Virus record (IMG/VR): IMGVR_UViG_3300030294_000125
Location: 1 to 30,974 of that record
Direction: 5' to 3' (one strand)
Length of the DNA: 30,974 bases
Source of the DNA: a virus
Shown here: positions 2,602-30,484 of the stretch, piece by piece
Layout: every line of letters begins with the position of its first letter
Position numbering within the stretch: the stretch's first letter is position 1
Position numbers and translations under genes: made by a program
Notes under the pieces: model-generated
The model's database searches: none
What the model saw: only the letters and a program-made list of their open reading frames with translations
What the model was told of the DNA's origin: nothing

Positions 2602-4155
2602 TTAACCTGCATTTTGGGCGGCATACAAAACGCGTACTAAGGCATCTTCAAGTTGTCGGGTAAGGTCTTGCGAATTTTCTTTTACACTTCCGTTGAAAAC
2701 TATATTTTCCACCATTTTGCCTAGGTTGATGGTAATTTGATTATTGCGGGTTCCGCCTGAGGCTACGCTGGTAGCTGTTTCTTTAGCTGCTGCTTTGCGC
2801 GTATTACCATTGTGGTTGATGTTATTTTGTTTGTTTTTAACGGTTGCGGGTATATAGGCTTTTGATACGGCATCCATACCGAGGGTTTTTTTCACATCGC
2901 CTACTAAATCGCCTAGGCCTTTATTATTCCATTTAAGCTCAATAATGGGCTTGCTTTTCAAGTCGTTATACTTCTTTTGAAGCTTTTGCTGGTTATTCCA
3001 GTCGTCCTGAAATGCTTTGGCTCTAGCGTTTCCGTCAGCATCTAATTGTTTCAGGGATGCTGCCGCGGAGGTGTCGCCAAACATGGCTTTTAGTTTATAC
3101 CATTTACGCATTACTTTATCTACCCCTGCCATGATTAGGCCTTCGAACATATCCCAAACTATCACTGTATTGGCTATAAATAGTTGAAATGATGTTTTCA
3201 TCAATTCAGTTACGTTATGCCATGTTTTACCCCATCCGTCGGTTTTATAAATAACATAGGAAATGGCTGCAATAAGGGCTACAACTAAAGCGATTATTAA
3301 TCCTACTTCATTTGCTTCCATGGCTATGTTTAGCAGCCATTGTAGGGCAGTACAGACTTGTATTGCTATTGCCATATCGCCAAACGCTGTTTGCAAATCT
3401 TCGATGGATTTTTTGTATAGAGCGGAGGGGTCTGAATCGAAAGCGGCTTTCGCGCTACCGCCTATTTTGTCTTGTACAATACCGACTAATTTTAAACGTG
3501 CGGCGGCTTCCTGTCCATTTTTAGCCAGGTTCTCAATGTTGCTTACATCGTTAGGGTCTATGTGAAGCATTGAGGCTAGTTTGTTCATTATATCGGGGCT
3601 GTTTACGGCGTTTGCCAGCATGCTTCCGGCATCTTGTAAGCTTAATCCGAACTTGGTGGACATGTCGGCCGAAGCCATTGTCAGTTTTTGCATTTCGTTT
3701 TGGCCTATATTGCCCAATAGATAGAATTGGCTTTGTAGCCCGATAATATCTGCCGTGGAGTAGTTGATGCCTGAGGATAATGTTTCGGCTCCTTCAATGT
3801 TTTTTTTGTATGCTGCTTCGGAATAGATGCCCATGTTTTGCATGGTGTTGGCAAGCTGGGCTTCGGCCGATTGCAGTGCTTGTGCCTTGTCGGCTCCTTC
3901 TTGCAGCATGGAACTTATTTGATCGAGGTTCGAATTACTGCCTGTTTTTGCCATTGTGCCGCTTAACGAAGATAGCGAACCGCCTAATTTAGTTGTTGAC
4001 TTACCTAACCCATCGGTTTTTGTTTGCAAGGAAGTCATCGCTTTTCCTAGCTCGGTTGAACCGCGCTCGTTGTTAGCGAATTCAGCCCCTATTTTTTCAA
4101 GACCGCCACTAGCATTATCTCTTAATGATATTCCAAATTCTACAGCACTTGCCAT
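2602..4155 (-). CDS. Tail tape measure protein (short, contractile tail)
   Basis: A 517-aa protein. The N-terminal 110 residues are Gly/Ser/Thr-rich helix, followed by Ala-rich helical segments. A hydrophobic stretch at about residues 265-300 (VGLIIALVVALIAAISYVIY) is the membrane-spanning segment usual in tape measures. A polar, Asn-rich C-terminus follows. Tape measure proteins fill the tail tube, set its length and leave during DNA or effector delivery. At about 0.15 nm per residue this would specify a tail near 77 nm (inference from a general rule). It follows the chaperone and its frameshift extension by four bases, the standard order in tailed phages. Confidence 0.75.
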   Translation of the reverse strand: MASAVEFGISLRDNASGGLEKIGAEFANNERGSTELGKAMTSLQTKTDGLGKSTTKLGGSLSSLSGTMAKTGSNSNLDQISSMLQEGADKAQALQSAEAQLANTMQNMGIYSEAAYKKNIEGAETLSSGINYSTADIIGLQSQFYLLGNIGQNEMQKLTMASADMSTKFGLSLQDAGSMLANAVNSPDIMNKLASMLHIDPNDVSNIENLAKNGQEAAARLKLVGIVQDKIGGSAKAAFDSDPSALYKKSIEDLQTAFGDMAIAIQVCTALQWLLNIAMEANEVGLIIALVVALIAAISYVIYKTDGWGKTWHNVTELMKTSFQLFIANTVIVWDMFEGLIMAGVDKVMRKWYKLKAMFGDTSAAASLKQLDADGNARAKAFQDDWNNQQKLQKKYNDLKSKPIIELKWNNKGLGDLVGDVKKTLGMDAVSKAYIPATVKNKQNNINHNGNTRKAAAKETATSVASGGTRNNQITINLGKMVENIVFNGSVKENSQDLTRQLEDALVRVLYAAQNAG

Positions 4156-5435: not shown

Positions 5436-6635
5436 TTAAGTTGTTGCTGTTTTAAATCCAAGATATAGGTCAATATATTTAGCGTAACCGTAAGGTTTCA
5501 CGCGTAACGTAACTGTAAGTTTAGAGCTGCTCACAATATTTTGAGTTTCGTCAATGTAGCATTCCACACCAATATCAGTAGCATCGCTAGGGTCGTTACC
5601 CAAGTTACCATAAGCCGTCATGTTGTTTTCAATAGCCGTTTCTACGGAGTTTTGGATGTTTTTACAAATGGCTGCTGGGATGGTGTTGGCATCGGTTACC
5701 GGAATTTCGTCGCTCAATTCATTTGCTAATGTTTGATAAGCAATACGATACGCTTTGTCGATAACCGAGCGGCGAGGAATCATTTGATAATCGTCGGTAG
5801 CCGAAGTTGCCAACGTGTCGTCGCTCCAGTAGTAACCTGTTTTGCCTACAAAGGTGCGGGCGGTAATATATCCGGCATCATGAATTGTGTCCGGTTTAGC
5901 ATTTTCGGGAGCCACTGAGCCTACATATAGGGTATCTACCCCGATGGCACCTGTTTTAACTCTGGCAATGGAGCGTTGAACCGGGATGGCTGCTATGCGG
6001 CCTGCAAGCAAACCTACACAAGCACCGTTTGATCCGCTCACGGTGTCGGCTATCAACACGCCTACACGGTTATCTGTTCTTCCTGACAAGAGAGCCAAAT
6101 CATTAGGTACGCCTGTATAATGGCGTCCTTCAATGATGATAAAGAATGGCGCGTAAAGGCTTTCGGTATAATATTTGGCTAATGCCTGGCCATTTGTAAT
6201 AGCTACAGGAACATCGGGGTCTAACCCGGATACTGCAGTTACAGAGTCATTCCCTTTTTTTGCTACAATGAGGTACGTAATAGCTCCCTTGGCACTTTCT
6301 ATCAAGGTGGCGGCATGCGCTTTGTCCTTATCAAGTATTTCGGATACTTTTAACGTGTCGGCAACACCCATTATCCACATGATGGATCCTATTGGGGCTT
6401 CGGTATAGAATTCGCTTACTTCTTTGTACAAGCGATCATTGTTGGCTGCTGTAACGCCCAAGGTAGTTAAATCGGCAAGCGAGGTAATTTGATACGCCTT
6501 ATCAAGAACGAACGTTGTACTTACTGCTACTGCACTTGCTACCAAACCGCATACCCGGTCGTCGATAGCATCAGAGCCTCCGATGGCTCCATTCTCGAAA
6601 TATATTTTTACTCGAGGTAATCCTGTTTCTGACAT
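5436..6635 (-). CDS. Contractile tail sheath protein, DUF2586-like
   Basis: A 399-aa protein recognised as the tail sheath of Bacteroidota contractile phages. It begins MSETGLPRVKIYFENGAIGG and VCGLVASAVAV, continues with a Rossmann-like core (GAITYLIVAKKGND, PFFIIIEGRHYTGVPND) and contains GLLAGRIAAIPVQRSIARVK. It ends in the C-terminal strand domain (LTVTLRVKPYGYAKYIDLYL) that interlocks neighbouring subunits. The sheath surrounds the tube and contracts to drive it through the target envelope. The length fits the family. It starts the structural run sheath-tube-chaperone-tape measure. It is the key evidence that this module encodes a contractile rather than a flexible tail. Confidence 0.85.
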   Translation of the reverse strand: MSETGLPRVKIYFENGAIGGSDAIDDRVCGLVASAVAVSTTFVLDKAYQITSLADLTTLGVTAANNDRLYKEVSEFYTEAPIGSIMWIMGVADTLKVSEILDKDKAHAATLIESAKGAITYLIVAKKGNDSVTAVSGLDPDVPVAITNGQALAKYYTESLYAPFFIIIEGRHYTGVPNDLALLSGRTDNRVGVLIADTVSGSNGACVGLLAGRIAAIPVQRSIARVKTGAIGVDTLYVGSVAPENAKPDTIHDAGYITARTFVGKTGYYWSDDTLATSATDDYQMIPRRSVIDKAYRIAYQTLANELSDEIPVTDANTIPAAICKNIQNSVETAIENNMTAYGNLGNDPSDATDIGVECYIDETQNIVSSSKLTVTLRVKPYGYAKYIDLYLGFKTATT

Positions 6636-8534: not shown

Positions 8535-8539
8535 CATTA

Positions 8540-8617
8540 TATCAGCTCCGTTTTTTTCTTCCCGTAAGCTCCGTTTTCGTTGATGATTCTCCGCCAGTGC
8601 AAAATCAATATTTTTTT
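8540..8617 (-). pseudogene. Truncated copy of the HTH-like phage gene at 9557-9775
   Basis: Bases 8540-8588 match 9563-9611 at 48 of 49 positions. After a 14-base deletion the similarity continues (CTCCGCCAG and GCAAA) to about 8617. On the minus strand the copy encodes remnants of the 72-aa protein's C-terminus (DFALAEN, then K-rich). It has no start region, so it is a decayed fragment. It forms a direct repeat with the intact gene and brackets the DUF2335 cassette. Confidence 0.75.
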
Positions 8618-9556: not shown

Positions 9557-9775
9557 TCAATTTATCAGCTCCGTTTTTTTCTTCCCGTAAGCCCCGTTTT
9601 CGTTGATGATTTGCGCAATCGTGTTCTCCGCCAGGGCAAACTCATCGATCAGTTTTTCCATTACTACTTCGTATCGCAAACCGCTGTTGTACAGTTTGGC
9701 AAATTGAACCTTGATGCGCTCGTTTCTACGCTCGCGGGCTTGAGTTACTCTTGAGTTTTTGTTTGTTCTAGGCAT
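9557..9775 (-). CDS. Phage-type small HTH-like protein
   Basis: A 72-aa basic protein (MPRTNKNSRVTQARERRNER at the start) whose second half (LYNSGLRYEVVMEKLIDEFA then LAENTIAQIINE) has the helix-turn-helix rhythm of sigma-4/MarR-like recognition modules. Small proteins of this type occur in Bacteroidota phage late regions, and a 74-aa protein of similar layout is at 19420-19644 in this window. It may bind DNA as a regulator or packaging accessory; neither is shown. The direction is the same as the phage operons. A truncated duplicate lies about 1 kb downstream. Upstream (9776-9900) there is a tandem AACAAGGAT repeat but no strong promoter. Confidence 0.6.
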   Translation of the reverse strand: MPRTNKNSRVTQARERRNERIKVQFAKLYNSGLRYEVVMEKLIDEFALAENTIAQIINENGAYGKKKTELIN

Positions 9776-10451: not shown

Positions 10452-10485
10452 AAACATTCCATATCTTAGCGGTATGGAATGTTTT
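10452..10485 (+). terminator. Repeated hairpin (copy 1), terminator-like
   Basis: AAACATTCCATATC pairs with GGTATGGAATGTTT (14 bp including one G-U) around a five-base loop, followed by TTTTATT on the plus strand. The 35 bases 10451-10485 are identical to 11719-11753. A third, variant copy is at 13829-13861. It lies about 150 bases past the end of the ART-like gene. Confidence 0.6.
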
Positions 10486-11719: not shown

Positions 11720-11755
11720 AAACATTCCATATCTTAGCGGTATGGAATGTTTTTA
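11720..11755 (+). terminator. Repeated hairpin (copy 2), terminator-like
   Basis: Same stem and loop as at 10452, followed by TTTTTATTT on the plus strand. It lies just beyond the 3' end of the secreted-paralogue pair (which ends at 11778). A plus-strand TACTTTTG box at 11487-11494 could start a short transcript ending here, but it has no -33 element. Confidence 0.55.
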
Positions 11756-11777: not shown

Positions 11778-12305
11778 TCATTCATATATTGTTCCGGTTA
11801 TTTCTTCTTTATTTGCTGTTTTATTCCATCCAATAAAAGCATTCCATTCTTTCATCACGGTGTTTCCATATCCATTTTGCACTTGTATTGGAATAATTAT
11901 ATATATTTGTTCTACAGTATCTACTTTGCCTCCATTTACCCGTCCAACACTGCTTCCTTTAATGGGAGAATAGCTTACCCTGTTTTTCACCGACTGCATG
12001 GCCTGCGATGAAGCCGCAGCTATTTTGTTCATAAGAAACAATTCGATATGCTGCATCGATTTGTGGTCTGCCACGTATTTTGCATTTGCAGGGTTGGTAT
12101 AGGTTTCTTTTTCCCATTCTATATAAATAGTTGTCTGTTTTATCTTATCTATATTATCAATCTTAAAAGAGATGGGTACTTGCTCGCCTATGCCACTTTC
12201 TAAATAGGTGTGGAATACATTGGCCGTGTCCAAGTATATTTTTTGCGACTGCGCGCTTACTACGAATGGCAATGCCATTAATACAATGATTAATATTTTT
12301 TTCAT
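11778..12305 (-). CDS. Secreted protein of unknown function (paralogue 2)
   Basis: A 175-aa protein with a Sec signal peptide (MKKILIIVLMALPFVVSAQS, cleavage expected after SA). The mature part begins KIYLDTANVFHTYLESGIGE and carries a core strand pair (TTIYIEWEKETY) and a helix with DHKSMQHIELFLMNKIAAAS. A beta C-terminus with PIQVQNGYGNTVMKEWNAFI follows. About 60% of residues agree with the gene immediately upstream; the first 30 mature residues and the NGYGNTVMKEW segment are almost unchanged. No known domain recognised. It is likely periplasmic. The 18-base gap to the first copy indicates a two-gene operon formed by tandem duplication. Confidence 0.7.
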   Translation of the reverse strand: MKKILIIVLMALPFVVSAQSQKIYLDTANVFHTYLESGIGEQVPISFKIDNIDKIKQTTIYIEWEKETYTNPANAKYVADHKSMQHIELFLMNKIAAASSQAMQSVKNRVSYSPIKGSSVGRVNGGKVDTVEQIYIIIPIQVQNGYGNTVMKEWNAFIGWNKTANKEEITGTIYE

Positions 12306-12323: not shown

Positions 12324-12851
12324 TTATTGATCGTAAGCCATTCCTCTTATTTCTTCTTTATTTTCTAATTTATTCCATTCAATGGAACCACGCCATTCCT
12401 TCATTACCGTGTTTCCATATCCATTTTGAGCTTGTATCGGAATATCTATAAAAACATATTCTATAGTGTCTGATTTTATACTCATTACACGCCCAATACT
12501 CCCCTTTATAGGCGAATAGCTTATGCTGTTTTTCATTGACTGCTTAGCTACAGACGATTCTGCTTCTATTTTTGACATTAGAAACATTTCTATATGCTGC
12601 ATTGACTTATGGTCGGCCACGTATTTTGCATTCGCGGGGTTAGCGAACGTTTCTTTTTCCCATTCGATATAAACCTTACACAATTTTATTGTATCTATAT
12701 TTTCAATATTAAAAGAGATCGGTATTTGTTCACCTATGCCGCTTTCTAAGTAGGTGTGAAACACGTTGGCCGTGTCTAAATATATTTTTTGCGACTGCGC
12801 AAACAAAGCTAACGGCAAGATTAATAAAACCAGAAGGAATGTCTTTTTCAT
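12324..12851 (-). CDS. Secreted protein of unknown function (paralogue 1)
   Basis: A 175-aa protein with a signal peptide (MKKTFLLVLLILPLALFAQS). An ATG at 12887 in frame would add 12 residues but lies within the TAnnTTTG promoter box, so 12851 is chosen; this also gives the same length as its tandem paralogue. The mature sequence shares KIYLDTANVFHTYLESGIGE, NPANAKYVADHKSMQHIE and NGYGNTVMKEW with paralogue 2 and differs mainly around residues 60-70 and 110-135. No recognised domain. A duplicated exported protein next to phage genes may be a moron that changes the host surface, but this is not supported by any motif. Confidence 0.7.
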   Translation of the reverse strand: MKKTFLLVLLILPLALFAQSQKIYLDTANVFHTYLESGIGEQIPISFNIENIDTIKLCKVYIEWEKETFANPANAKYVADHKSMQHIEMFLMSKIEAESSVAKQSMKNSISYSPIKGSIGRVMSIKSDTIEYVFIDIPIQAQNGYGNTVMKEWRGSIEWNKLENKEEIRGMAYDQ

Positions 12852-12880
12852 AATATTGTTTTTTTTGGAGATTTCGAATG

Positions 12881-12888
12881 CAAACATA
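12881..12888 (-). promoter_or_regulatory. -7 promoter box of the secreted-paralogue operon
   Basis: TATGTTTG on the minus strand (12888 to 12881) matches TAnnTTTG and lies about 30 bases before the ATG at 12851. It decides the start choice. It is divergent from the plus-strand promoter at 13036. Confidence 0.55.
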
Positions 12889-13828: not shown

Positions 13829-13866
13829 AAACATTCCATATCTCTAAGATATGGAATGTTTTTATT
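13829..13866. terminator. Rho-independent terminator, repeated hairpin copy 3
   Basis: A perfect 15-bp stem (AAACATTCCATATCT paired with AGATATGGAATGTTT) with a three-base loop CTA, followed by a T-tract on the plus strand. It sits between the convergent ends of the plus-strand secreted gene and the minus-strand tape measure. The outer stem is shared with copies at 10452 and 11720; the loop differs. Confidence 0.75.
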
Positions 13867-13870
13867 TTTA

Positions 13871-16800
13871 TCACACAGTGCCGGAGCTTACTATATTGGT
13901 GTAGTTGACATCGGCCTTGCGGTAGTCCTCCACCGTGGTATATACCTTTACTTTGCTCACGGCAGCAACCATAGCCTGGTGCATATCGGCCGCCGTAATG
14001 GCGTTTGCCTGTGTGCGCGCAGAGTAGCCGCCATCGTTGCTGAAAGCGTAATTTACCATGCCTCCCGTTGCATATTTGCCCACCATACCTCCGCCGGCAA
14101 ACTTTACGCCGCCCCCGGCTTCGTTGATAGCCGAAAGCACCGAGCCATACATGGCCGTGCTGCGTTTATTGATAATGGCTTCGCCACCTTCTACCTCGAT
14201 GGGGATGCCGCCCTGGGCATGCGATTTCCCCCGGAGCAACATACCCCGGCCTGCTGTAGGTAATGGCGTGGCGGCTATAACAGCCGCTTGAGCCGCCCCC
14301 GCCGCTATAGTATAGGCAAGAGAAGCATAAGCCACAGGTACATAGGCCACCGTAAGTGGATTCGACTGTAAAACGCCTATTGTTGTCATAATTTTGGCAA
14401 CTGCTTCGCCGGTGTTAACGGCAACGTTGAATAGATTAATGAGTTTTTCTCTTTTTGCCTGATCCTGTGCCACTTTCTTTTTCTTGGCGGCTAGGTCGGC
14501 TTCCGACTTGGCTACCTCTTTGTCGTATTGCTTTTTCGTTATAAGCCCGGAACTCAACTGATTGTCGAGTGCTGTTTTTTTCGAGTTGTTGTCGTTTTCC
14601 GCTTTTTGCACTTCGGCATCGCCCAGTGCTTTAAACAACGAGCTTACTTGCGAGCCCAATTCTATTGATTTATCCGCCCACTCTTTTGCGTTTTCTATTT
14701 TCTTAAGTGTGTGAGCTTGATCCAAATCTTGTATTTCGGCCTGTATCTTTGCCTGTTCGTTCGCACCCAGGTTAGAAAGCATTAGTTCGTCCGCTAATTC
14801 TTTCCGTTTAATTTTATAGGTTTCCTCCGCGCTGTGCCTCGCGGCTATTAACTCCGCCGCGTATTTTTGCTGCGTCTGTTTTATAGTCAACGCGTTAAGG
14901 TTGTTTTCCGAGTTCGTTACAGCTACTCCGGCTGCATCAGCTACATCCTGATCCTTGTTGTCTTTTGCCTTGTCCTTGCTTTTGTGTGATACGCGGGCAT
15001 CCGCTATCGCCTTTTCTTGTTTGAGTTTAGCCAGCCTTTCTTTTTCTTTCGCAATCATGAGGTCGGTTATTTCCTCTTCGTCGCCTACCGCTCGTGCAAG
15101 CCGAAGGGCATATTTTTGATCCAACTGGGCATCAATGAGAGCTTCTTGCTCTTTGAGCGATTTCAGTTTTATGTTTTTTATATCCTCGGCTTCTTGTTTT
15201 TTCACGGCCACGGTGTACAAAGCCAACTCGTTTGCGTTAAGTTTACCCTCTTTAGTTAATAGTTGCAAGCTTTTAATTTCTTCTTCGGTAGCTTTTTGTC
15301 GGTCGGCAACTTGCATTTCCAGGTTTTTTTTAAGAAACGAGAGTGTTTTTTCCTTGAGGTCTTTCAACGCATCCTCATATTCTTTTTTCTTGTCAAAAAT
15401 TTCTTTTTCGGCATTCGCATTTATCAGGGTAATTTGAGCCTCATTGCCCTGGGCGTCGTATATTTTGTGAGCCTGTTGGTCTTGAATTAATTTAATTTCC
15501 GTATCGAGACTTTCCTGTGTATTTTTTTCGGTTTTTAATATGGCTGCCTGATCTCGTGCTTCTTGGTCGGTATATTCTTTGTCTCTGGTTTGCCTGCGTT
15601 GTTCGGCAGCGGCTTTTCTTTTTGCTTCGGCTTCTTTTGCGTCTTGATCTTTTTTTGCCGCGGCAGCTTTATCCTGATCGGACAATTCTTTGGCTAACGA
15701 ATGCTGACTGGCATTTGCGTTTTGAGCTCCTTTCGTGGACTCACCTTGAGCCTTAATGGATATGGTGTAAAGATTGGTGACGTTATCAATTTCAGCCGCC
15801 GTGGTTTTACCATAGGCGGTTAAGGTTTTTGCTAGAACTTTTGTTTGAGTATTATACATATTCTCAACCGCATACGTTGATGCCTGTTGTGCTTTCTCTA
15901 TCGCCTTATCGCCATAATTCATTACACCCTTGGGGTCTATTTCTTTTAATTTTTGTTTATATAATTTTACATAGACTTCTAATTGTTTTGGATTCAACAA
16001 TTCGGCCGGATCCATGTAATTCTTTATGGAGTTTTTCAAACTATTATACATTGTTGCCGATTGTTTCATGGCCGGGAAATCACGCTTGTTGTAATTTTCC
16101 ATGAAACTTTCATATTCTATTTTGGAAAGACCTGTTAACCCAGTTATTTTCTTCATCGCAGCGTTATAATTTCTATCGGCTACCGATTGCTTTAGAGCTG
16201 ATTCCTGATTGGTTAATTCTACTATTTTTTTTGAGGCATCTAACCGCTCTTTATTTGATTTGGTTGCATCACGAGATATTCCGGTTAATTTTAGAATTTG
16301 ATTATTAATCTTTGCTTCTTCCACTGATATAGCAGCGGATGAAGTATGGATATCTTGCATTTCATTATAAAAATCTTTTCCGGCTTTGTACGCATTTTTT
16401 AACCCGGAAAAAGAAAAATCGCCGGAGGCCAACGATTTTTTAAAATAGTTCCAAGACGTGCTTAACCCTTCCAACCCGGATTTGAATTGATTAAACGTTG
16501 TTTGTGTACTTTCCATTACTGATTTTACGGCATCAAAGACTCTCGAAAGGTTACCAAGCACTTTTATTGCGGCTCCCACTTCGGGTACAAATACACCAAC
16601 CACAGTTCCTACGGTTTTTAATGTATCGCCTAATTTGCCGGATGACTTTTCATTTTGATCTACAGCCGTGGTACTGTTTTTCAATTTCTCCGACATTTTA
16701 GTTACGGCATCCGATGCAATTAAGGCTTGTGTGGAATTTTCACCATAAGCATCAGCTAGAGCTTTGGCTTTTTCTATGGTTATCTGGTATTGAAGGCTTA

Positions 16801-17068
16801 GTTTGGACAGGGAAGCCGTGTTGGTGTCTATATTTTTCAGTTCGTTCAGTACCTGAGTTTCTTTGTTTTTTATCTCGGCACCTAGCTCTTTTATCTTGTC
16901 TTTATTTGCATTTATCTGGGTAGTGTTGGTTTTGTAATCGTCAGTTAATTTTGCTATTTCCGCCCGTAGGTTTTGAACGGCTATTTGGGCGGCGGCTATT
17001 TCTTTAATCGCGTCTTGCGTTTCCACGCTTACGGTTAGCAGTATGTTTTGTTGTGTGTTATCGGCCAT
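13871..17068 (-). CDS. Tail tape measure protein (long, second tail module)
   Basis: A 1065-aa protein. Residues 1-140 are coiled coil (Asn/Lys/Glu/Ala heptads). A hydrophobic region (TVGTVVGVFVPEVGAAIKVL) follows. Residues about 450-850 are Ala/Lys/Glu/Asp-rich coiled coil. The C-terminal 180 residues contain a long hydrophobic segment (PLTVAYVPVAYASLAYTIAA) and a Gly-rich part with GGEAIINKRSTAMYG and GGGMVGKYATGG, typical of Bacteroidota tape measures. By the usual rule it would specify a tail about twice as long as that of the 517-aa protein. It is the last gene of the second module and ends against a hairpin terminator. Confidence 0.75.
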   Translation of the reverse strand: MADNTQQNILLTVSVETQDAIKEIAAAQIAVQNLRAEIAKLTDDYKTNTTQINANKDKIKELGAEIKNKETQVLNELKNIDTNTASLSKLSLQYQITIEKAKALADAYGENSTQALIASDAVTKMSEKLKNSTTAVDQNEKSSGKLGDTLKTVGTVVGVFVPEVGAAIKVLGNLSRVFDAVKSVMESTQTTFNQFKSGLEGLSTSWNYFKKSLASGDFSFSGLKNAYKAGKDFYNEMQDIHTSSAAISVEEAKINNQILKLTGISRDATKSNKERLDASKKIVELTNQESALKQSVADRNYNAAMKKITGLTGLSKIEYESFMENYNKRDFPAMKQSATMYNSLKNSIKNYMDPAELLNPKQLEVYVKLYKQKLKEIDPKGVMNYGDKAIEKAQQASTYAVENMYNTQTKVLAKTLTAYGKTTAAEIDNVTNLYTISIKAQGESTKGAQNANASQHSLAKELSDQDKAAAAKKDQDAKEAEAKRKAAAEQRRQTRDKEYTDQEARDQAAILKTEKNTQESLDTEIKLIQDQQAHKIYDAQGNEAQITLINANAEKEIFDKKKEYEDALKDLKEKTLSFLKKNLEMQVADRQKATEEEIKSLQLLTKEGKLNANELALYTVAVKKQEAEDIKNIKLKSLKEQEALIDAQLDQKYALRLARAVGDEEEITDLMIAKEKERLAKLKQEKAIADARVSHKSKDKAKDNKDQDVADAAGVAVTNSENNLNALTIKQTQQKYAAELIAARHSAEETYKIKRKELADELMLSNLGANEQAKIQAEIQDLDQAHTLKKIENAKEWADKSIELGSQVSSLFKALGDAEVQKAENDNNSKKTALDNQLSSGLITKKQYDKEVAKSEADLAAKKKKVAQDQAKREKLINLFNVAVNTGEAVAKIMTTIGVLQSNPLTVAYVPVAYASLAYTIAAGAAQAAVIAATPLPTAGRGMLLRGKSHAQGGIPIEVEGGEAIINKRSTAMYGSVLSAINEAGGGVKFAGGGMVGKYATGGMVNYAFSNDGGYSARTQANAITAADMHQAMVAAVSKVKVYTTVEDYRKADVNYTNIVSSGTV

Positions 17069-22191: not shown

Positions 22192-22601
22192 TATCGTTGG
22201 GTTTGTATTTGGGTGGTGTAATAATCGGTTACCTGGGTGGTGAGCTGCCGGGTGAAGGTGTTAATAAGGGGTGTGTAAGGGTCGGCGTTGGAACTGGCTT
22301 TAGCGGAACGGAATTGGGCGGTGCCGTTTTTTTGTATCCACCATTGCAGGAAGCGGGCTACGCGGAGGAGCTCGTCTTGATTGTGGATGGTGATGCCCCG
22401 TGCGCTGATCCATTCCTGTAGTATTTGCTCAAAGTTGTCGGCAGTGGCGGTGATGTCAGGGCCCAGCAGGGTGCCTGTGTTGGCGGTTACGGTGTGGGTG
22501 AAGTTGGCGGCTTGGCCGTTTTCCTGTTGGTAGGCTTGCTGCATGGAGGTTTGCAGGGTGGCGAGGTTTTGTTCCAGTATGTTTTGTAGGGTGTCGGCCA
22601 T
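22191..22601 (-). CDS. Putative neck/minor tail protein (HK97 gp10-like layout)
   Basis: A 136-aa protein. The central part (TGTLLGPDITATADNFEQIL, then WISARGITIHNQDELLRVAR) and the following helix FLQWWIQKNGTAQFR resemble small head-tail joining proteins of Bacteroidota prophages, in which an LLGP motif is followed by a WI..RGI segment and a charged helix. Such proteins close the tail tube near the portal. It is coupled at both ends: start and stop overlap the neighbouring genes by one base each (TAATG). The assignment is by pattern and neighbourhood only. Confidence 0.45.
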   Translation of the reverse strand: MADTLQNILEQNLATLQTSMQQAYQQENGQAANFTHTVTANTGTLLGPDITATADNFEQILQEWISARGITIHNQDELLRVARFLQWWIQKNGTAQFRSAKASSNADPYTPLINTFTRQLTTQVTDYYTTQIQTQR

Positions 22602-23104
22602 TAGGTTTTGTATTTTGCTTGTATTATTTTACTGTATCGCTGGTTGAACTTGTATTCTTCGAGGTCGGTGTAGAGGATGCCGAATACTTTGCCATACTCC
22701 CACTCGAGTATTTCGTCGGGGTCTTTAGCGTAGGTTTTGGCCAGGGCTTTGATGGTGGTGAATTCGCCTACTTTGGCGGTGAAGTCTTTTATCCCGGCTT
22801 GTTTTTCCTCGGGGCTGGGCTGGTAGTTGAGCAGGGTTGTTTCTTGCTGTATCCAGTGGGTGATGCCTTCTATTATTTGGTTGAAGTAGTTGATTAGGCT
22901 TTTGTAATCGCGTGTTTTGGGGGTGTATTGGTGTAGTATTTGAAATGTTTGTTCGAATTTTTCTATTTCGCTTACCTGGCTTTGGTAGAGTTTGCCTAGC
23001 TCGATGCGCTGCCCGAAGGTGAGCTTGCCGCCCTTGATGTCGATGGGGCGGATGTGGCGGGGTAGCTTGGGGTGCCTGGGCTTAAAGGGGTTTCTGAATT
23101 TCAT
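22601..23104 (-). CDS. Phage structural or assembly protein of unknown role
   Basis: A 167-aa basic, helical protein. The N-terminus is Pro/Lys/Arg-rich (NPFKPRHPKLPRHIRPIDIK), followed by LTFGQRIELGKLYQSQVSEI. The second half contains FTTIKALAKTYAKDPDEILE and WEYGKVFGILYTDLEEYKFN, a pattern I have seen in tail-assembly-chaperone-like proteins of Bacteroidota phages. That reading is tentative, because no slippery frame was found after it. It is the first gene downstream of the second copy of the shared phage promoter element, so it heads the neck/tail transcription unit. The next gene overlaps by one base. Confidence 0.45.
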   Translation of the reverse strand: MKFRNPFKPRHPKLPRHIRPIDIKGGKLTFGQRIELGKLYQSQVSEIEKFEQTFQILHQYTPKTRDYKSLINYFNQIIEGITHWIQQETTLLNYQPSPEEKQAGIKDFTAKVGEFTTIKALAKTYAKDPDEILEWEYGKVFGILYTDLEEYKFNQRYSKIIQAKYKT

Positions 23105-23268
23105 GGGTTAATGGTTGGAGCCTCCCCCAACCCCTCCTCCCGATAGCTATCGGGAAGGGGTTGGGGGTGAATTATCTTTGTTCTTAGCGTCCTAGCGGCT
23201 TTGCGTTTAATGTTTTGTTTTTATTCTTAAAGCCCCTTCGGGGGTTGGGGGCTTGTCTTTTCTCTTTT
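23105..23268. repeat. GC-rich palindromes in the leader of the neck/tail operon
   Basis: A long hairpin at 23124-23167 (arms CCCCCAACCCC... and ...GGGGTTGGGGG around CGATAGCTATCG, with a two-base bulge) and a smaller GC-rich palindrome at 23231-23256. Between them is the dispersed motif TTAGCGTCCTAGCGGC/TTTGCGTTTAAT. This insertion places about 160 bases between the promoter element and the first gene. Confidence 0.7.
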
Positions 23269-23356
23269 AACTAACAAATATACGACATTTACCCTGTAAA
23301 ACAAAGTTAAATTATTGATATTCAATTTGTTATTTGCAAAATGTAATTGCATTTTG
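23269..23356 (-). promoter_or_regulatory. Shared phage promoter element, copy 2 (neck/tail operon)
   Basis: On the minus strand this contains TATATTTG with TTG 19 bases upstream, the Bacteroidota -7/-33 layout. It aligns without gaps to 26501-26588: 21 bases around the -7 box identical, 14 bases different, then 16 identical (AAGTTAAATTATTGAT as read on the plus strand). A partly conserved upstream part with two TTTGCA/TTGCA units follows. The conserved upstream part is a candidate binding site for a phage activator. Confidence 0.7.
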
Positions 23357-23957
23357 CGGATGGAAAATGATTAGCCGATATGCTAATGTGGAAATTAGCC
23401 AATGTGCAAATGAATTAAAGAAATGAAGAACATGATTAAACGCGAAGACGGAAAGACGCTAACAAAGAAGGCGGGAACGCCATGTAGTGACAGCTCGTGA
23501 GCTGTCTGTAGAAAATTAGCGAACGGGAGGCGAGCGTGTGTATAGACGGTGCGTGCACCGTCTGACCAGGGGTTACCGGGACGCGGGTTTCCAACGCCGG
23601 GCGGGGCTGTGCTTTGATGGAACACGAATTACACAAATAGACACAAATGAACTTGAATTATTATTCCTTTGCGGCTTCGAGTCTTAGCGTTTAATCTTCT
23701 TCTTGTCTTTATTCTTTGTTCTAATATCTTGTGGAACCCTCCGGGTTCGGGATGTGTGCGTTTGCGTATACCCCGCATTGCATACGGGGTTATCGTTGTT
23801 TCCCCCTCCGGGGGCTTGGCTCAATGTGGAACACGAATTACATAAATAGACACAAATGAACTCGAATTATTATTCCTTTGCGGCTTCGAGTCTTAGCGTT
23901 TAATCTTCTTCTTGTCTTTATTCTTTGTTCTTTGTTCTTTGCTATTTGCTCTGATTT
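23357..23957. repeat. Gene-free stretch of dispersed Bacteroidota repeats
   Basis: No gene supported. A 105-base direct repeat occurs at 23618-23722 and 23827-23931 (two differences; starts TGGAACACGAATTACA). Hairpins of the GACAGCT/AGCTGTC and GACGGTGC/GCACCGTC kind lie near 23489-23510 and 23545-23566. A palindrome GTATACCCCGC...GTATACGGGG-like unit occurs near 23766-23792. Open frames here read through repeats and were not accepted. Confidence 0.65.
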
Positions 23958-24410
23958 TCAGCATCTTTTCAGCGTGCACTCGAATTCGAGCATGACGGAT
24001 ATTTCGTTGGCATCGAAGCGGGGGAAGGGGTAACTGAGGTTGTATTGCTTCACGTCGTCGAAGAGGGCGGCTTGCTTGTAAGCGTCCATAAAGGGCTCTA
24101 CTATTTCGGTTTCTATCTGGTTGCGGAGGGCTTCGCGGGTGGTGGCGTCCTGATGCAGGGGTGTGAATTTGCAGAAGTAGATTTGCATTTTCATGGTTTT
24201 GCTCTTGAAGTATTTTTCGCGGGTGTATCGCCCGGTGATGAATTCTTCTATGTACACGAAGCTGTCGGTGCTTTGCATACCGTCGGCTTGGATGTTCATC
24301 ATGCTGCTTTCTTCGTATTGTACGCTGTAGGTGGGTGCGTCGGGGTTGAGTGCCTGGTAGTTGGCGTTGGCGGTTTGAATGATGCCTTTGAGGGTGTTTA
24401 GGAGTGCCAT
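23958..24410 (-). CDS. Putative tail/neck structural protein
   Basis: A 150-aa protein. An N-terminal helix (ALLNTLKGIIQTANANYQAL) is followed by strands (TYSVQYEESSMMNIQADGMQ, TDSFVYIEEFITGRY). A second helix (REALRNQIETEIVEPFMDAY) and strands ending SVMLEFECTLKRC follow. The helix-strand-helix-strand order and length fit the tail terminator or tube-completion proteins that follow the portal/connector genes. No diagnostic motif was seen. It is isolated on both sides by repeat-rich DNA, without an obvious promoter box upstream, so transcription probably reads through from the terminase genes. Confidence 0.4.
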   Translation of the reverse strand: MALLNTLKGIIQTANANYQALNPDAPTYSVQYEESSMMNIQADGMQSTDSFVYIEEFITGRYTREKYFKSKTMKMQIYFCKFTPLHQDATTREALRNQIETEIVEPFMDAYKQAALFDDVKQYNLSYPFPRFDANEISVMLEFECTLKRC

Positions 24411-24768
24411 TTTAATTCATAATTTTTAATTCATAATTCGTAATTGAGAATACGGAAGACAGAAGTTAAAGAAGTTAAGGAAGTTAAGAAGTTAGCCCCC
24501 CGCCTCCCGATAGCTATCGAGAAGGGGGGATGGGTTTGTTTATTAGTTTTTATTCGTTCGCATTTGCGTGTTTTATTTTTTGTTTATTTCTTCTTTGCGA
24601 CTTCGAGTCTTAGCGTTTAATCTTTCTTTACTTTCTTTCTCCGCTGCCTTCGACTCCGCTCAGGCACCACCGCCACTCATTTTTCCTCTATTTTCTTTGT
24701 TCTCTTTCTTCTTAGCGACCTTGTGTCCTAGCGTTTAATCTTATTGTCTTTCATCTTTGCTCTTTGCT
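24411..24768. repeat. Gene-free stretch between terminase and structural genes
   Basis: Nothing coding. It contains tandem GAAGTTAA-type units (24462-24493), a GC-rich palindrome around CCCGATAGCTATCGAG (24497-24530) and a copy of the 21-bp motif with CTTCGACTCCGCTCAGGCAC (24648-24668). Two TTAGCG...GTTTAATCTT dispersed units are also present. Portal and capsid genes would be expected here in an intact phage; none is present. Confidence 0.65.
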
Positions 24769-25944
24769 CTAGTATGATATTTTCCGTATTCCCCCACTTT
24801 GGGGTTTTATGCTGAGTTTGTTTAGTGCCACGTAGCGGAGGGCATCCAGGAGGTGGTTGTAGCTGTCAATGGGTTCGTTGGTGGGGTGGCCGTTTTTGTC
24901 GGTTTTCCATTTGTAGGCGGTGAGTTCTTTCCGCAGGTTCGTGGATTGGCGGGTTACGTTGAGGTGGTAGCGTTTCAGGATGTCAATGCCGTTGAGTATG
25001 CTGTCGGGGCCTTTGCGGGCGGGTTCTACTTTTAGTTTCTGGGCTTTTAGTTCAGCTATGCTTTTGGGCTCGGCGCAGTCGGCTATAATCTCGTGGGTGT
25101 GGAGCTCGTTGCGTGTTATGCTGTCTATTATGCGGCTGTTGAGCATGCCGGTAGTGTATTCTATTTCGTTGAGCCAGAGCTCACCTTCGCTGAGCATCAC
25201 GTCGATGATGGCCGTGGGGTCGTTGGTGAAGCCGAAATCGAGGCCTATCCATCGTTTCTTGTATTGGTCGGGCATCTCGTCCACCAGGCTCCAGTCGGTG
25301 TAAATCTGCCCTTCCAGTTTTCCGGTAAGCCCGCGGGCATATACTTTCCATAGCTCTTTGTCTTTTATTTCTTCTATCCGCTGGTGCTGTTCGGGGGTGA
25401 GGTAGGGGTTGTTGCGGTGGTCGGAAATGATGAGTTTCACGTCCGGCTTGCCTACCATGTCGTGCGCCCAGAAGCGTGCGGTGGGGTTGTAGTCGATATA
25501 CACTTTTTTGCGTGTGCGGATCTCGAGCTGGAAGTAGATGGGGTACTGGATGCCGTCGGCTTCGTTCACGAATAGGTAGTCGCGCTTGCCGCTTTTGGCG
25601 TCTTGCTCATCCTGATAGGAGTTGAATTCTATCACGGAGCCGTTGTGGCAGGTAAATAGGCGATCGGTTTCGTTGGGTTTGGCTATTGTTTCGCGGTATA
25701 GTGGTGAGTTGCTCCATATTTGTTTGGCATCGCGGTAGGCTCCTTTTTTGAGGTTGGGTATGTCTTGGCCGACTACGGTTATTACTTGGTTTTGTTCGCG
25801 TGTGGCGAGGATGAACAGCACGTCGAGTATGGTGTATGTTTTTCCGCTGGAGGTTCCTCCCTGGTTGATTATGATTCGTTTGTCGGTGTTTAGGTTTTCA
25901 AAAAACAAAGGTGGCTTGTGTAGTGTGATCTTGTTTTTGCTCAT
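24769..25944 (-). CDS. Terminase large subunit
   Basis: A 391-aa protein, complete. ATPase domain: Walker A GGTSSGKTY at residues 29-37, followed by the ITVVGQDIPNLKKGAYRDAK segment. A Walker B-like YLFVNEADGI lies near residue 125. Nuclease domain: GLDFGFTNDPTAI near residue 228 with the first catalytic Asp, DCAEPKSIAEL near 290, and a final LLDALRYV with the last acidic residue. It belongs to the large PBSX/Terminase_6-like group. The enzyme packages DNA into capsids using ATP and cuts the concatemer. It overlaps the small terminase gene by 47 bases. All motifs look intact, though no portal or capsid gene follows. Confidence 0.9.
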   Translation of the reverse strand: MSKNKITLHKPPLFFENLNTDKRIIINQGGTSSGKTYTILDVLFILATREQNQVITVVGQDIPNLKKGAYRDAKQIWSNSPLYRETIAKPNETDRLFTCHNGSVIEFNSYQDEQDAKSGKRDYLFVNEADGIQYPIYFQLEIRTRKKVYIDYNPTARFWAHDMVGKPDVKLIISDHRNNPYLTPEQHQRIEEIKDKELWKVYARGLTGKLEGQIYTDWSLVDEMPDQYKKRWIGLDFGFTNDPTAIIDVMLSEGELWLNEIEYTTGMLNSRIIDSITRNELHTHEIIADCAEPKSIAELKAQKLKVEPARKGPDSILNGIDILKRYHLNVTRQSTNLRKELTAYKWKTDKNGHPTNEPIDSYNHLLDALRYVALNKLSIKPQSGGIRKISY

Positions 25945-26467
25945 TGTCGGGGAATGTTGATTTGGCGTTGCGTTCCACCTTCATATATACTGTTTTCACG
26001 GGTTCTTTGCCTTGGTGGGCGGTGAGTTCCTTTTTGTCGGATAGGCCGAGTTTGCGCATCACGATGCTGGCGTTGAAGGTTCCTACCATGGCGCCTTCGA
26101 ATTGCTGGGTGTTTATTATTTGGTTCACGCGGGTGCAGATGTCGAAGTAGGCTTTGTTGCAGGGTTTGGTGGCGTAGGTGTCGAAGTCCTGGCGGTTGAT
26201 GTCGAGGTAGTTGCATAGCCCGTCCAGGGTGTAGGGGCGGGTGGTGGGCACGGCTATGGTGGGGCCTAGTAGCTGGAGTAGCTCGGTGGTGTCGCCTTCA
26301 AAGTTGGCGGGTATGGTGGTGCTGCCTTTCTTGGGTTGCATTTTTATCCAGGGGTTTTGGTCGCACCAGTCGAAGTATTGGCAGGCTTTGTCCCAGAGCT
26401 GCTGGGGGGTGTATTCTGTATGTTGGGTGGGGTTGCCCCATTTGGTGTGTTGGTCGGGTGCTGGCAT
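25898..26467 (-). CDS. Terminase small subunit
   Basis: A 189-aa protein. An ATG at 26509 would add 14 residues, but it lies inside the TAnnTTTG promoter box, so the ATG at 26467 (MPAPDQHTKWGN) is chosen. Features: TPQQLWDKACQYFDWCDQNP near the N-terminus and RPYTLDGLCNYLDINRQDFD, a helix-turn-helix-like DNA-binding part. A helical MVGTFNASIVMRKLGLSDKK follows, with the GTFNASIVMRKLGL pattern usual in small terminases of Bacteroidota and Firmicutes prophages. It would recognise the pac/cos site and hand DNA to the large subunit. The gene overlaps terL by 47 bases and heads the operon. Confidence 0.8.
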   Translation of the reverse strand: MPAPDQHTKWGNPTQHTEYTPQQLWDKACQYFDWCDQNPWIKMQPKKGSTTIPANFEGDTTELLQLLGPTIAVPTTRPYTLDGLCNYLDINRQDFDTYATKPCNKAYFDICTRVNQIINTQQFEGAMVGTFNASIVMRKLGLSDKKELTAHQGKEPVKTVYMKVERNAKSTFPDNEQKQDHTTQATFVF

Positions 26468-26500
26468 GGTGTGTGGTGTTTTTTCGGTGTTGTCTTTTTT

Positions 26501-26588
26501 AACTAACAAATATACGACATTGTTTTTAAAATGTCAAGTTAAATTATTGATTGTGAGTGTGTTGTTTGCAGTTTGTATTTGCATTTTG
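26501..26588 (-). promoter_or_regulatory. Shared phage promoter element, copy 1 (terminase operon)
   Basis: On the minus strand: TATATTTG (26514 to 26507) preceded by TTG at 20 bases. Upstream is a block shared with 23269-23356 at the same spacing. The transcription start would fall near 26500, so the first usable start codon of terS is 26467. Confidence 0.75.
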
Positions 26589-27100
26589 AGAATATGGGAG
26601 AATAAAGAGCAAAGAATAAAAATGAAAGACTATAATAAAGGTTAAACGCTAAGACGGAAAGGCGCAAAGAGGAAAGACAATTAGCCAATGTGCTAATTAG
26701 CAAATTAAAGAATGAAGAGAATTAAGAAAATAGAGGAAAAATAAGTGTCGGTGGTGGCTGTGGTGCCTGAGCGGAGTCGAAGGCAGCGAAGCCGAAGCCA
26801 ATACAATAAGATTAAACGCGAAGATGCTAGGACGCTAAGAGGAAAGACATGGAATGAGGGGAGGGGAACACGAATTACACGAAGGACACAAATGAACACA
26901 AATGATTAAACGCGAAGGGGCTAGAACGCAAAGAATAACCACACTTACAGGCAAAAGAAGCGACTGCTTGGATAGAAACAAAACTCAACCCGGCGGGCTG
27001 TAAACAATGCTTAAGTTGATGAATGATGTAGGTGCTAATGGATAGGTAGTTAGGGGGTTTGAAAAGTACACTAGCAGATAAAAGCAAAACTACAACATTG
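26589..27100. repeat. Gene-free stretch of dispersed repeats
   Basis: Bases 26690-26756 match 9991-10057 at 66 of 67 positions. The 21-bp motif lies at 26762-26782. A unit GGAACACGAATTACACGAAG with CACAAATG repeats lies at about 26867-26910. No gene, and no strong terminator for the 646-aa gene that ends at 27101, was seen. Confidence 0.6.
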
Positions 27101-29041
27101 CTATTTTACATTAATAGTTATTGGTTGTTTATCTTCTGTTTGAGGTTTATCCTTTTGAATATAAATAGTATCTGTCTTTTGTTTCTCTGAATTATTTATA
27201 GTCTTCATTAATGGAAATTTAAAATAAAGCAAAAAACTTAAAAACAATACAAATAAAACAAAGAATAAAACGGCAAAAAATCTTAGCTTATGAAAATTAA
27301 AGACTTCTTTATAGTCTTTTTTGGTTGTAACAAATGGAGAAACAATAAGAAGCAATGCTAAAAATAATAAGAGAACAGTCCCTAACGCGGATGAATTTAC
27401 TATTATTGATAAAAAATTAGAGCCTTTGTTTGCAACAAATATATTAACAGAGCCAAACAAAAAGGTAATAAGACCCGTGAAGATTCCAAGAATTTCAAAG
27501 TTTCTTTTTAACGCTGATTCAATTTCACTTTTTGTATTTTCAATGCTCTGTTTTACTTTTGAGAAATCAGAACGTTGGGACAAATTCTCTTGTAAAAAAT
27601 CAAAACGTTGGGATAAATTCTCTTTTTTACGTCTTGATTCATCTAAATAATTATCCTGTTCTTTGTAATCGATATATTTGGCAAAAGTTGATGGACAATA
27701 TACACTTATACCATTTATTTCAACCAATGATTCTGAAAATGGGAGTTGAAACGGAAAGAATTTATGATTCTTACTCCATTTGATAGAGTCTTCATATTTT
27801 TTTAATAAAGAATTAAGCTCACTAAATTTATCATCAATAAGGCTACTATAATCTCCTTTTTCTAAATGTGAATCCAAACATTTAATTATTGATTCTATTG
27901 CTTTTTCAAAAGGATGAAAATTTCGTACATCCGTTTTATTGTGCAGTTCTGTAATTTTGTTGATTTCTTCTTTTAGCTCTTTAAGTTGAAGTTTTCCATG
28001 TGTGGACAAAAACGAAAATCGACAATTGTATAGAAAATTTTGGACAGTATCCCATGAAAATTTATCGTGTTTGTCTAATAAATTAGTTGATTCTGATAAT
28101 CTTCTAACTGCAGAATCGTATTTTTTGTCAAATTTACTAATGACTTTATCCATTTTTTTATCAACATCCTTTTTGTCTTTAAGTGTTTGATAATGGCGCA
28201 TCAATAAAATATAAGAAGATAAATTGTTCGATTCAGAATTAATGTCTTTTTTCCATTTGTTTATTTTATTCTCATCAATTTCAATATCCTTATCTTGGTC
28301 AAATAATTTTGTTAATTCAAAAAAATCTTTGAAGTTGTCTATTTCTAATGAGTCTGGATTGTTTTCTCTGGTTACAAAGTCAAGAGAGAAAAAGAAAACG
28401 TCTTTTTTTATCCTTTTAATAATAAAATGACATTTATATAAAAGAATATTATAAATATTGAGTAATTCTTTTTTGTCTGCTGCTACTATATTTCTAATTT
28501 TATTTTCAATGTTAGTTTTGATGCTAAGAAGATCTTGAAACTTGTCATCATTAGATGGAAATTGGTAATCAAATTTACATATAGGAATACATAAATTGAT
28601 AAAATCATCTAATCTCGAAGGTGTAGTAGATGTGTATGTGCTGTAGATGCCAAAATCATTGCTATTATCTTTTGTGTCAACTTTTTGCTTAGCATATATT
28701 TGTACACGTTGAAGATGCCTAATTGAGTTAAATAAACTCTTATTTATCTCTTGTATGCGGTTGTTAATAATTGCTTTTTTCTCATCGTCATCTATAGAAT
28801 ATTCACGTGATATAGCGTTTAAAAAAATAGTAATGTCATTATTAAACGTATCCGAATAAATATATTCACCACATAAAATTGATTTTGAAAAACAAATAAA
28901 GCTGTTTTCTATAAAAGAATCTAAATTATTAGAAACAGTTCTATATGCAACATCATCACTAAAATCTATAGTCTTAGTCTCTATATTAGTTGATTCAATA
29001 TATTCATCATAACATTTTTGTATGTACTTTTTTCTTTCCAT
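27101..29041 (-). CDS. Large protein with C-terminal membrane segments (candidate effector of Panacea system)
   Basis: A 646-aa protein I do not recognise. Residues 1-480 are helical, highly charged (Lys/Asp/Asn) and AT-coded, with no P-loop, nuclease or protease motif that I can see. At about 470-490 there is a duplicated 11-residue unit (ENLSQRFDFLQ/ENLSQRSDFSK), then a short coiled coil (QSIENTKSEIESALKRN). Three hydrophobic segments follow: ILGIFTGLITFLFGSVNIFV, SALGTVLLLFLALLLIVSPF and LRFFAVLFFVLFVLFLSFLL. The tail is polar. The layout, a large soluble sensor-like part with a membrane anchor, fits membrane effectors of bacterial defence systems. Its start follows the Panacea gene stop by four bases. 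A toxin role is inferred from context. Confidence 0.6.
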   Translation of the reverse strand: MERKKYIQKCYDEYIESTNIETKTIDFSDDVAYRTVSNNLDSFIENSFICFSKSILCGEYIYSDTFNNDITIFLNAISREYSIDDDEKKAIINNRIQEINKSLFNSIRHLQRVQIYAKQKVDTKDNSNDFGIYSTYTSTTPSRLDDFINLCIPICKFDYQFPSNDDKFQDLLSIKTNIENKIRNIVAADKKELLNIYNILLYKCHFIIKRIKKDVFFFSLDFVTRENNPDSLEIDNFKDFFELTKLFDQDKDIEIDENKINKWKKDINSESNNLSSYILLMRHYQTLKDKKDVDKKMDKVISKFDKKYDSAVRRLSESTNLLDKHDKFSWDTVQNFLYNCRFSFLSTHGKLQLKELKEEINKITELHNKTDVRNFHPFEKAIESIIKCLDSHLEKGDYSSLIDDKFSELNSLLKKYEDSIKWSKNHKFFPFQLPFSESLVEINGISVYCPSTFAKYIDYKEQDNYLDESRRKKENLSQRFDFLQENLSQRSDFSKVKQSIENTKSEIESALKRNFEILGIFTGLITFLFGSVNIFVANKGSNFLSIIVNSSALGTVLLLFLALLLIVSPFVTTKKDYKEVFNFHKLRFFAVLFFVLFVLFLSFLLYFKFPLMKTINNSEKQKTDTIYIQKDKPQTEDKQPITINVK

Positions 29042-29045
29042 TCAG

Positions 29046-29615
29046 TTATGATTGGGGAATATATCCGTAAAATTTATTCCGATCGTTTCTAATTTCTTCT
29101 GAGGTTATTTTATATGCTTGTTGCCCCATTAGTTGAGCGAAGTTATAAGCAGAAATCCAGCTATCCCATTGATGAGTGATTTCCACTAGATCAAAAGCAT
29201 TCAGCGTAATGAGTTCTGAGTTAATATTTTTTATTTTATTGACTGATTTTTCTATTTTGAGTTGAAGTTCCTTCTCTAACGTTGTTAAACCAGTATTTTC
29301 TTTTATACTTATTTTTCTATCTGTTATATCGTAATTTGGTAATTCATTGCTATTCATTGCATTATACACATCACTTTCAACTGGTCCGTAAGGGAGTGCA
29401 CGAAAATCGTCAAAAATATCCAACAAGTCGCTCTTATCATCTTTATCATCTGTTTTTGTTGCCGCTGTAAGAAAAAGTAATTTTAGCAACGAAAGCTTAG
29501 TGAACGCATTGGTAAATGCGTCATCTTTTCCTGTTCTCTCTTTGTACCAACCCGCAAAAAGTTCAACTAAATAATTGAACGATAGTGCTTTTATATTGTT
29601 TTTAGATAAATCCAT
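29046..29615 (-). CDS. Panacea-domain protein (DUF4065/SocA/GepA-like), candidate antitoxin
   Basis: A 189-aa protein. Residues about 15-60 give the opening helices (FNYLVELFAGWYKERTG, then LSLLKLLFLTAATKT). These are followed by the hallmark FRALPYGPVESDVYNAM, matching the YGPV.S.VY motif of Panacea domains. The C-terminal part (LNAFDLVEITHQWDSWISAY, then QAYKITSEEIRND) also fits the family, where an L..LT/H..W helix ends the domain. Panacea domains act as antitoxins neutralising many unrelated toxins, or as proteolysis adaptors (SocA). It is the first gene of a two-gene operon, directly before the 646-aa membrane protein. Promoter with tandem repeats upstream. Confidence 0.75.
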   Translation of the reverse strand: MDLSKNNIKALSFNYLVELFAGWYKERTGKDDAFTNAFTKLSLLKLLFLTAATKTDDKDDKSDLLDIFDDFRALPYGPVESDVYNAMNSNELPNYDITDRKISIKENTGLTTLEKELQLKIEKSVNKIKNINSELITLNAFDLVEITHQWDSWISAYNFAQLMGQQAYKITSEEIRNDRNKFYGYIPQS

Positions 29616-29693: not shown

Positions 29694-30484
29694 ATGTTAT
29701 GTCCATAAATATCCACGTTTATTTCCATATTTCCCAGCCATACCGAAGTTCTCCGTTAAGTGTAGGCTCTGCCCATAACCTACGCCGAACATAAGTTATC
29801 GTTTTAAATTTTTGCAGACAGGTCGCAACCTCTCACTAGGGACTTTCCCGCCTTCGTTCTTAGCGTCCTCGTGCCTTCGCGTTTAATCTTATGTGTCAAT
29901 TTGTGTCCTTCGTGTAATTTGTGTTCCAGCATTCAGCACCGAGGCATTTGTGGAAGCCTAACCCCTCCGCTTCGCTCGTCCCCTTTAGCAAAAGAGGACA
30001 ATATTTGTACTAGCTGCGCAATAGTACCTGTAAGAATGCTTGTGCAAATTATTCTTCCCTATTGATAAAGGGAAGTACCCGTAAGGGGGATGGGTTAGAA
30101 TAATTGATAATTCATAATTGTTTAGTTGTGTTGCCCTCCGGGCATTTTCTTTCGCAGCTAGAACACAAATTACACGAAGGACACAAATAAACACGAATGA
30201 ATTTCTAAGAGACAGCTAGCAAGCTGTCTCTACGCAGGCTTTCCCGCTTTTATTCTTCGCGTCCTCGTGCCTTCGCGTTTAATCTTATTGTCTTTCTTCG
30301 CTGGCTTCGACTCCGCTCAGGCACCATAGCCACCGCCCGCAGGTATTCTCCCGGTATTTTTTAATTATTTTAATTTTCTTCATTTCTTTAATTCATCAGC
30401 TAATTAGCACATCGGCACAGTTGCACATTGTCGTTGCTCTTTATTCTTTAACATTTTACACTCTTCATTTAAAATCGGATTTAT
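29694..30484. repeat. Gene-free stretch of dispersed repeats
   Basis: No gene supported. Contains TTAGCGTCCTCGTGCCTTCG and GTTTAATCTTAT units (near 29858-29892 and 30256-30290), CGTGTAATTTGTGTTCC and its reverse (near 29910-29926 and 30162-30180), and a GAGACAGCT/AGCTGTCTC hairpin (30210-30229). A 21-bp motif copy lies at 30305-30325. Short frames here cross repeats and are not accepted. Confidence 0.6.

Follow-up and report, generated by a model that had tools for sequence, protein, structure and literature searches.

In the P2 (Ogr) and Mu (C) systems, several late units of a single phage have an upstream site in common, in addition to their sigma boxes. A narrow search of the open-access literature found no description of a Bacteroidota phage late-gene activator of such a kind. 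For the primary sigma factor of Bacteroidota the consensus is TAnnTTTG at -7 with TTTG near -33 (PMC7366714), the former being placed at -12 to -5 (PMC9723704). We analysed a whole IMG/VR virus record from a phage of Bacteroidota, a stretch of 30,974 bases referred to here as the window, in which an 88-base element occurs twice. The copies resemble P2-like and Mu late promoters in having an upstream site common to several late units, though they differ from them in that there are two sites only, these contain direct TGCAA repeats and not the known sites, no activator was identified and the host belongs to a different phylum. They resemble Bacteroidota sigma-ABfr promoters in their TAnnTTTG at -7, their TTTG-type -33 box and the 19-20 base spacing, though that consensus demands far less than the 25 + 16 + 24/29 bases common to both copies.

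The two copies of the putative promoter element, with the paired units at their upstream ends, are:

26501..26588, minus strand: predicted promoter element, copy 1; 67/88 identical to copy 2; upstream of the terminase small subunit
23269..23356, minus strand: predicted promoter element, copy 2; aligned to copy 1 without gaps; upstream of the second structural unit
26565..26583, minus strand: two TGCAAA units of copy 1, 13 nt apart
23333..23351, minus strand: two TGCAA units of copy 2, 13 nt apart

When 26588-26501 is aligned to 23356-23269 on the minus strand, 67 of the 88 positions are identical, compared to 45 for the runner-up ungapped 88-mer on either strand of the window (mean about 24, standard deviation about 4.6), and a BLAST search of the record with copy 1 returned copy 2 as its sole match (E 6.5e-18). 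The copies are in direct orientation, 3,232 bp apart, on either side of the terminase block. Read 5′ to 3′, the identities by block are 24/29 (the TGCAA region), 3/8, 16/16 (ATCAATAATTTAACTT), 3/14 (the spacer) and 25/25 (AATGTCGTATATTTGTTAGTTAAAA, surrounding TATATTTG). The ungapped alignment and block counts of the preliminary description were thus correct, save that its identical core of 21/21 extends to 25, and the two TTTGCA-type units that it placed in a partly conserved block are present in both copies, the second unit of copy 2 being ATTGCA. On the plus-strand numbering the TGCAA units begin at 26565 and 26578 in copy 1 and at 23333 and 23346 in copy 2, a spacing of 13 bases in both; TGCAA is itself frequent across the window. 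When the match positions were permuted, two runs of at least the observed length had P = 0.00056 and a 17-nt stretch with 11 mismatches had P = 0.0024; such blockwise clustering is unlikely by chance. The spacer matches no better than chance, whereas the blocks next to it are fully conserved and longer than the sigma boxes, and this suggests conservation beyond those boxes.

Both copies carry TATATTTG as a TAnnTTTG -7 box, and each has, some 19-21 bases from it, a TTTG-like -33 box, CTTG-N20 in copy 1 and TTTG-N19 in copy 2:

26507..26514, minus strand: predicted -7 box TATATTTG of copy 1, with CTTG and an N20 spacer before it
23275..23282, minus strand: predicted -7 box TATATTTG of copy 2, with TTTG and an N19 spacer before it

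The identical 16-mer runs into the -33 box, the 25-mer spans the -7 box together with the predicted start, and the unconserved bases between them form the spacer. Transcription starts would be expected near 26502 and 23270, which would put the TGCAA pair some 58-86 bases before the predicted start. The boxes and their spacing support both copies as well-formed Bacteroidota sigma-A promoters heading two phage gene blocks, which comprise:

25898..26467, minus strand: terminase small subunit (Pfam PF16677, GP3_package; PHROG 606)
24769..25944, minus strand: terminase large subunit (Pfam PF17288 and other terminase domains)
23958..24410, minus strand: 150-aa protein after the large terminase, conserved in relatives (tblastn 45-47%, L003-L011)
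23105..23268, minus strand: copy-2 leader with two G+C-rich hairpins, the larger containing the dispersed repeat TCCCGATAGCTATCGGGA
22601..23104, minus strand: first gene after copy 2 (tblastn 43-65% in L003, L005-L011)
13871..17068, minus strand: tape-measure-like protein of the unit after copy 2 (PHROG 18891, E 6.4e-9)

The distance from copy 1 to the small-terminase ATG (26467) is 35 nt and the large terminase then follows, so that the Pfam domains directly downstream agree with the earlier claim that copy 1 heads a terminase unit. From copy 2 to the ATG of the gene 23104-22601 the distance is about 166 nt. The second unit had been described as neck and tail; the tape-measure-like protein bears out the tail, while the neck found no backing, the sole profile match of 22601-23104 being a weak one to PHROG 28240, of unknown function. 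Downstream of the terminase, in 1-26500 of the window, neither a portal nor a major capsid gene could be recognised, and the start of the structural gene order is common to the relatives. A separate contractile-tail module is also present, with a sheath gene (5436-6635), a second tape-measure-like protein (2602-4155) and baseplate hub genes. No third copy of the element lies before the contractile-tail genes read from 7562, on a contig that may be a fragment.

The earlier suggestion that a palindrome-rich insert separates copy 2 from its gene was right, the copy-2 leader having a predicted fold of -53.4 kcal/mol (z -4.6). Exact matches to the palindrome TCCCGATAGCTATCGGGA were found in 28 of 395 Bacteroidota genomes, with as many as 34 sites per genome, and to its reversed control in none. 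Because the palindrome recurs in Bacteroidota chromosomes, the insert is, by its sequence, of the host-type dispersed-repeat kind. The widened intergenic gaps consist of repeats with further copies across the window; a search of Rfam gave no match. Short dispersed repeats crowd the intergenic DNA at 23100-24800, 26600-26950 and 29840-30430, for instance GATTAAACGCGAAGANGCTAGGACGCTAAGA, GAACACGAATTACAC..GACACAAATGA, CTGCCTTCGACTCCGCTCAGGCACC and TCCCGATAGCTATCGGGA. No such intergenic repeats were revealed when the nearest terminase relatives were compared with themselves.

Related large terminases were found at 80 IMG/VR loci, nine of which (L003-L011) are 70-73% identical and keep the gene order where the contig covers the region. 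Where the DNA upstream of their small terminase is readable it holds a TAnnTTTG promoter in otherwise different sequence, for instance TTTG-N20-TAAATTTG before terS in L005, L006, L008, L009 and L011. The element itself is absent from L003-L082, and no relative locus has a promoter pair like that of the window; in the gap before the second unit the relatives showed no comparable promoter, barring TAnnTTTG matches inside small ORFs. From terL to the 150-aa gene the distance is 4 nt in L005-L011 compared to about 360 in the window, and from the 150-aa gene to the next it is 108-131 nt in L003 and L008 compared to about 850. The latter gap is about 370 nt in L007 and about 500 in L005, L006 and L009-L011, and this wider gap (L005-L007, L009-L011) is partly filled by a small ORF. 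L005, L007 and L009-L011 have two further features in common: ahead of the second structural unit, the gap contains a hairpin with core GAGAAAGTCTC, and the homologue of 22601-23104 is preceded by a conserved leader, TATCAAATAGTCA. A genome scan with the large terminase returned one prophage-like relative, in Mucilaginibacter, which lacks the element, and a second, smaller scan by gene for the unit downstream of copy 2 returned one distant relative only.

We consider it probable that a single sigma-A-type late promoter was duplicated, and that two blocks split by host-type repeats are in this way co-expressed. The host primary sigma factor, of the sigma-ABfr type, would read both copies through the TTTG or CTTG at -33, the 19-20 base spacing and TATATTTG; transcription of the terminase genes would start at copy 1, with a leader of only 35 nt, and that of the structural unit after them at copy 2. 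The corresponding genes of the nearest relatives mostly lie close-packed behind one promoter. In the window host-type dispersed repeats would have widened the gaps between genes, and a second promoter copy sits in the widened gap, where it would keep both blocks under the same control. The conserved blocks lie at the expected sigma contacts while the spacer is at chance level. Against this, the conservation rests on one pairwise comparison, that of the two copies, no relative has a duplicated promoter, some relatives have a wider gap with no evident second promoter, and the contractile-tail genes are not preceded by a third copy. Transcription from both copies, duplication as their origin and restored downstream expression are what we infer, and gene spacing by itself is what would suggest that expression was restored after the repeats widened the gaps. 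An activator, of phage or host origin, may in addition act at the TGCAA pair.

It is possible, though we do not favour it, that a plain sigma-A promoter was recently duplicated and its spacer changed by chance, with no additional binding protein. Duplicated segments fill the nearby intergenic DNA, and such an event would account for the identity outside the sigma boxes; the differences, however, cluster in the spacer and one short gap (permutation P 0.0006). That clustering leads to a tentative alternative, close to what the preliminary description proposed, in which a phage-encoded late activator would, much as Ogr of P2 or C of Mu does, recruit host polymerase to both promoters by binding the TGCAA pair together with the ATCAATAATTTAACTT block beside it. 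In its favour are the identities of 24/29 and 16/16 outside the sigma boxes compared to 3/14 in the spacer, the pair of units 13 bases apart in both copies, and the specificity of the element to the present phage among everything searched. The conserved blocks thus do exceed the sigma boxes, as had been claimed, but the activator part of the proposal did not fare as well: only two sites exist on what may be a fragmentary contig, none of them before the contractile-tail genes, so that the site is not common to all late units; it is not conserved in related phages (L003-L082), the nearest relatives (L003-L011) included; TGCAA is common in the window; and no activator gene was identified. A 72-aa ORF at 9557-9775 had no Pfam match. 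Because relatives lack the site, two copies only are present and there is no candidate activator, we regard such a protein as somewhat unlikely, and the proposal that a Bacteroidota phage late activator works with sigma-ABfr-type polymerase via a paired-TGCAA upstream site as rather doubtful. Two copies alone, in the absence of a close relative, do not allow selection by a bound protein to be told apart from duplication followed by patchy change.

A reading of the element as one more dispersed repeat from the host chromosome, with a promoter within it by chance, appears improbable. It lies among repeats, and one or more of these recur in Bacteroidota chromosomes, but the 19-mer AATGTCGTATATTTGTTAG was found at up to one mismatch in none of the 395 Bacteroidota genomes, including the 28 that carry the neighbouring palindrome, where a dispersed chromosomal repeat would have many copies. 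The exact 19-mer is in no other IMG/VR contig. Looser patterns returned 12 and 35 stretches of at most 46/88 identity to the element, and no terminase was recognised, by eye, in the next ORF of each. BLAST of copy 2 against 396 genomes of another, repeat-rich order gave weak matches in 36; the eight of these inspected had short partial matches, none joining the -7 block to the rest. In phage and plasmid collections the matches were at chance level only. Because the 19-mer is absent from other IMG/VR contigs and from the 395 genomes, the element is not generic host sequence, as judged on the genomes sampled. The preliminary description had held that scattered copies unrelated to phage genes would count against it; the window has only two copies, both heading phage gene blocks, and a partial check of this kind found none in the sampled genomes and none at the related loci. 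It is very improbable that the copies are direct repeats for recombination, excising or exchanging the 3.2-kb terminase block, since their direct orientation 3,232 bp apart around that block is outweighed by conserved blocks that coincide with promoter boxes, a 67/88 identity with scrambled spacer that would make a poor recombination site, and no recognised adjoining recombinase.

Several further features of the window were observed. A SocA/Panacea-domain gene (29046-29615) adjoins a 646-aa protein with C-terminal hydrophobic segments (region 27101-29615), and the two are possibly a toxin-antitoxin or defence pair. Tandem paralogues of about 75% DNA identity at 11778-12305 and 12324-12887 encode small proteins with signal-like N-termini, and three near-identical 33-nt palindromes of the AAACATTCCATATCTTAGCGGTATGGAATGTTT type (10452-10484, 11720-11752 and 13829-13861) bracket a cargo region. 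A stretch of the small ORF 9557-9775 is duplicated (8535-8607 and 9558-9644), adjoining a DUF6169 gene.

Overall, this is a real promoter pair, and a modest departure from the usual control of phage genes. Late-gene control in Bacteroidota phages is little described, and a conserved site outside the sigma boxes, in two natural copies, would offer a route to identifying a regulator. The duplicated promoter is also an example of how expression of a gene block may be maintained in a phage whose operon is invaded by host repeats.
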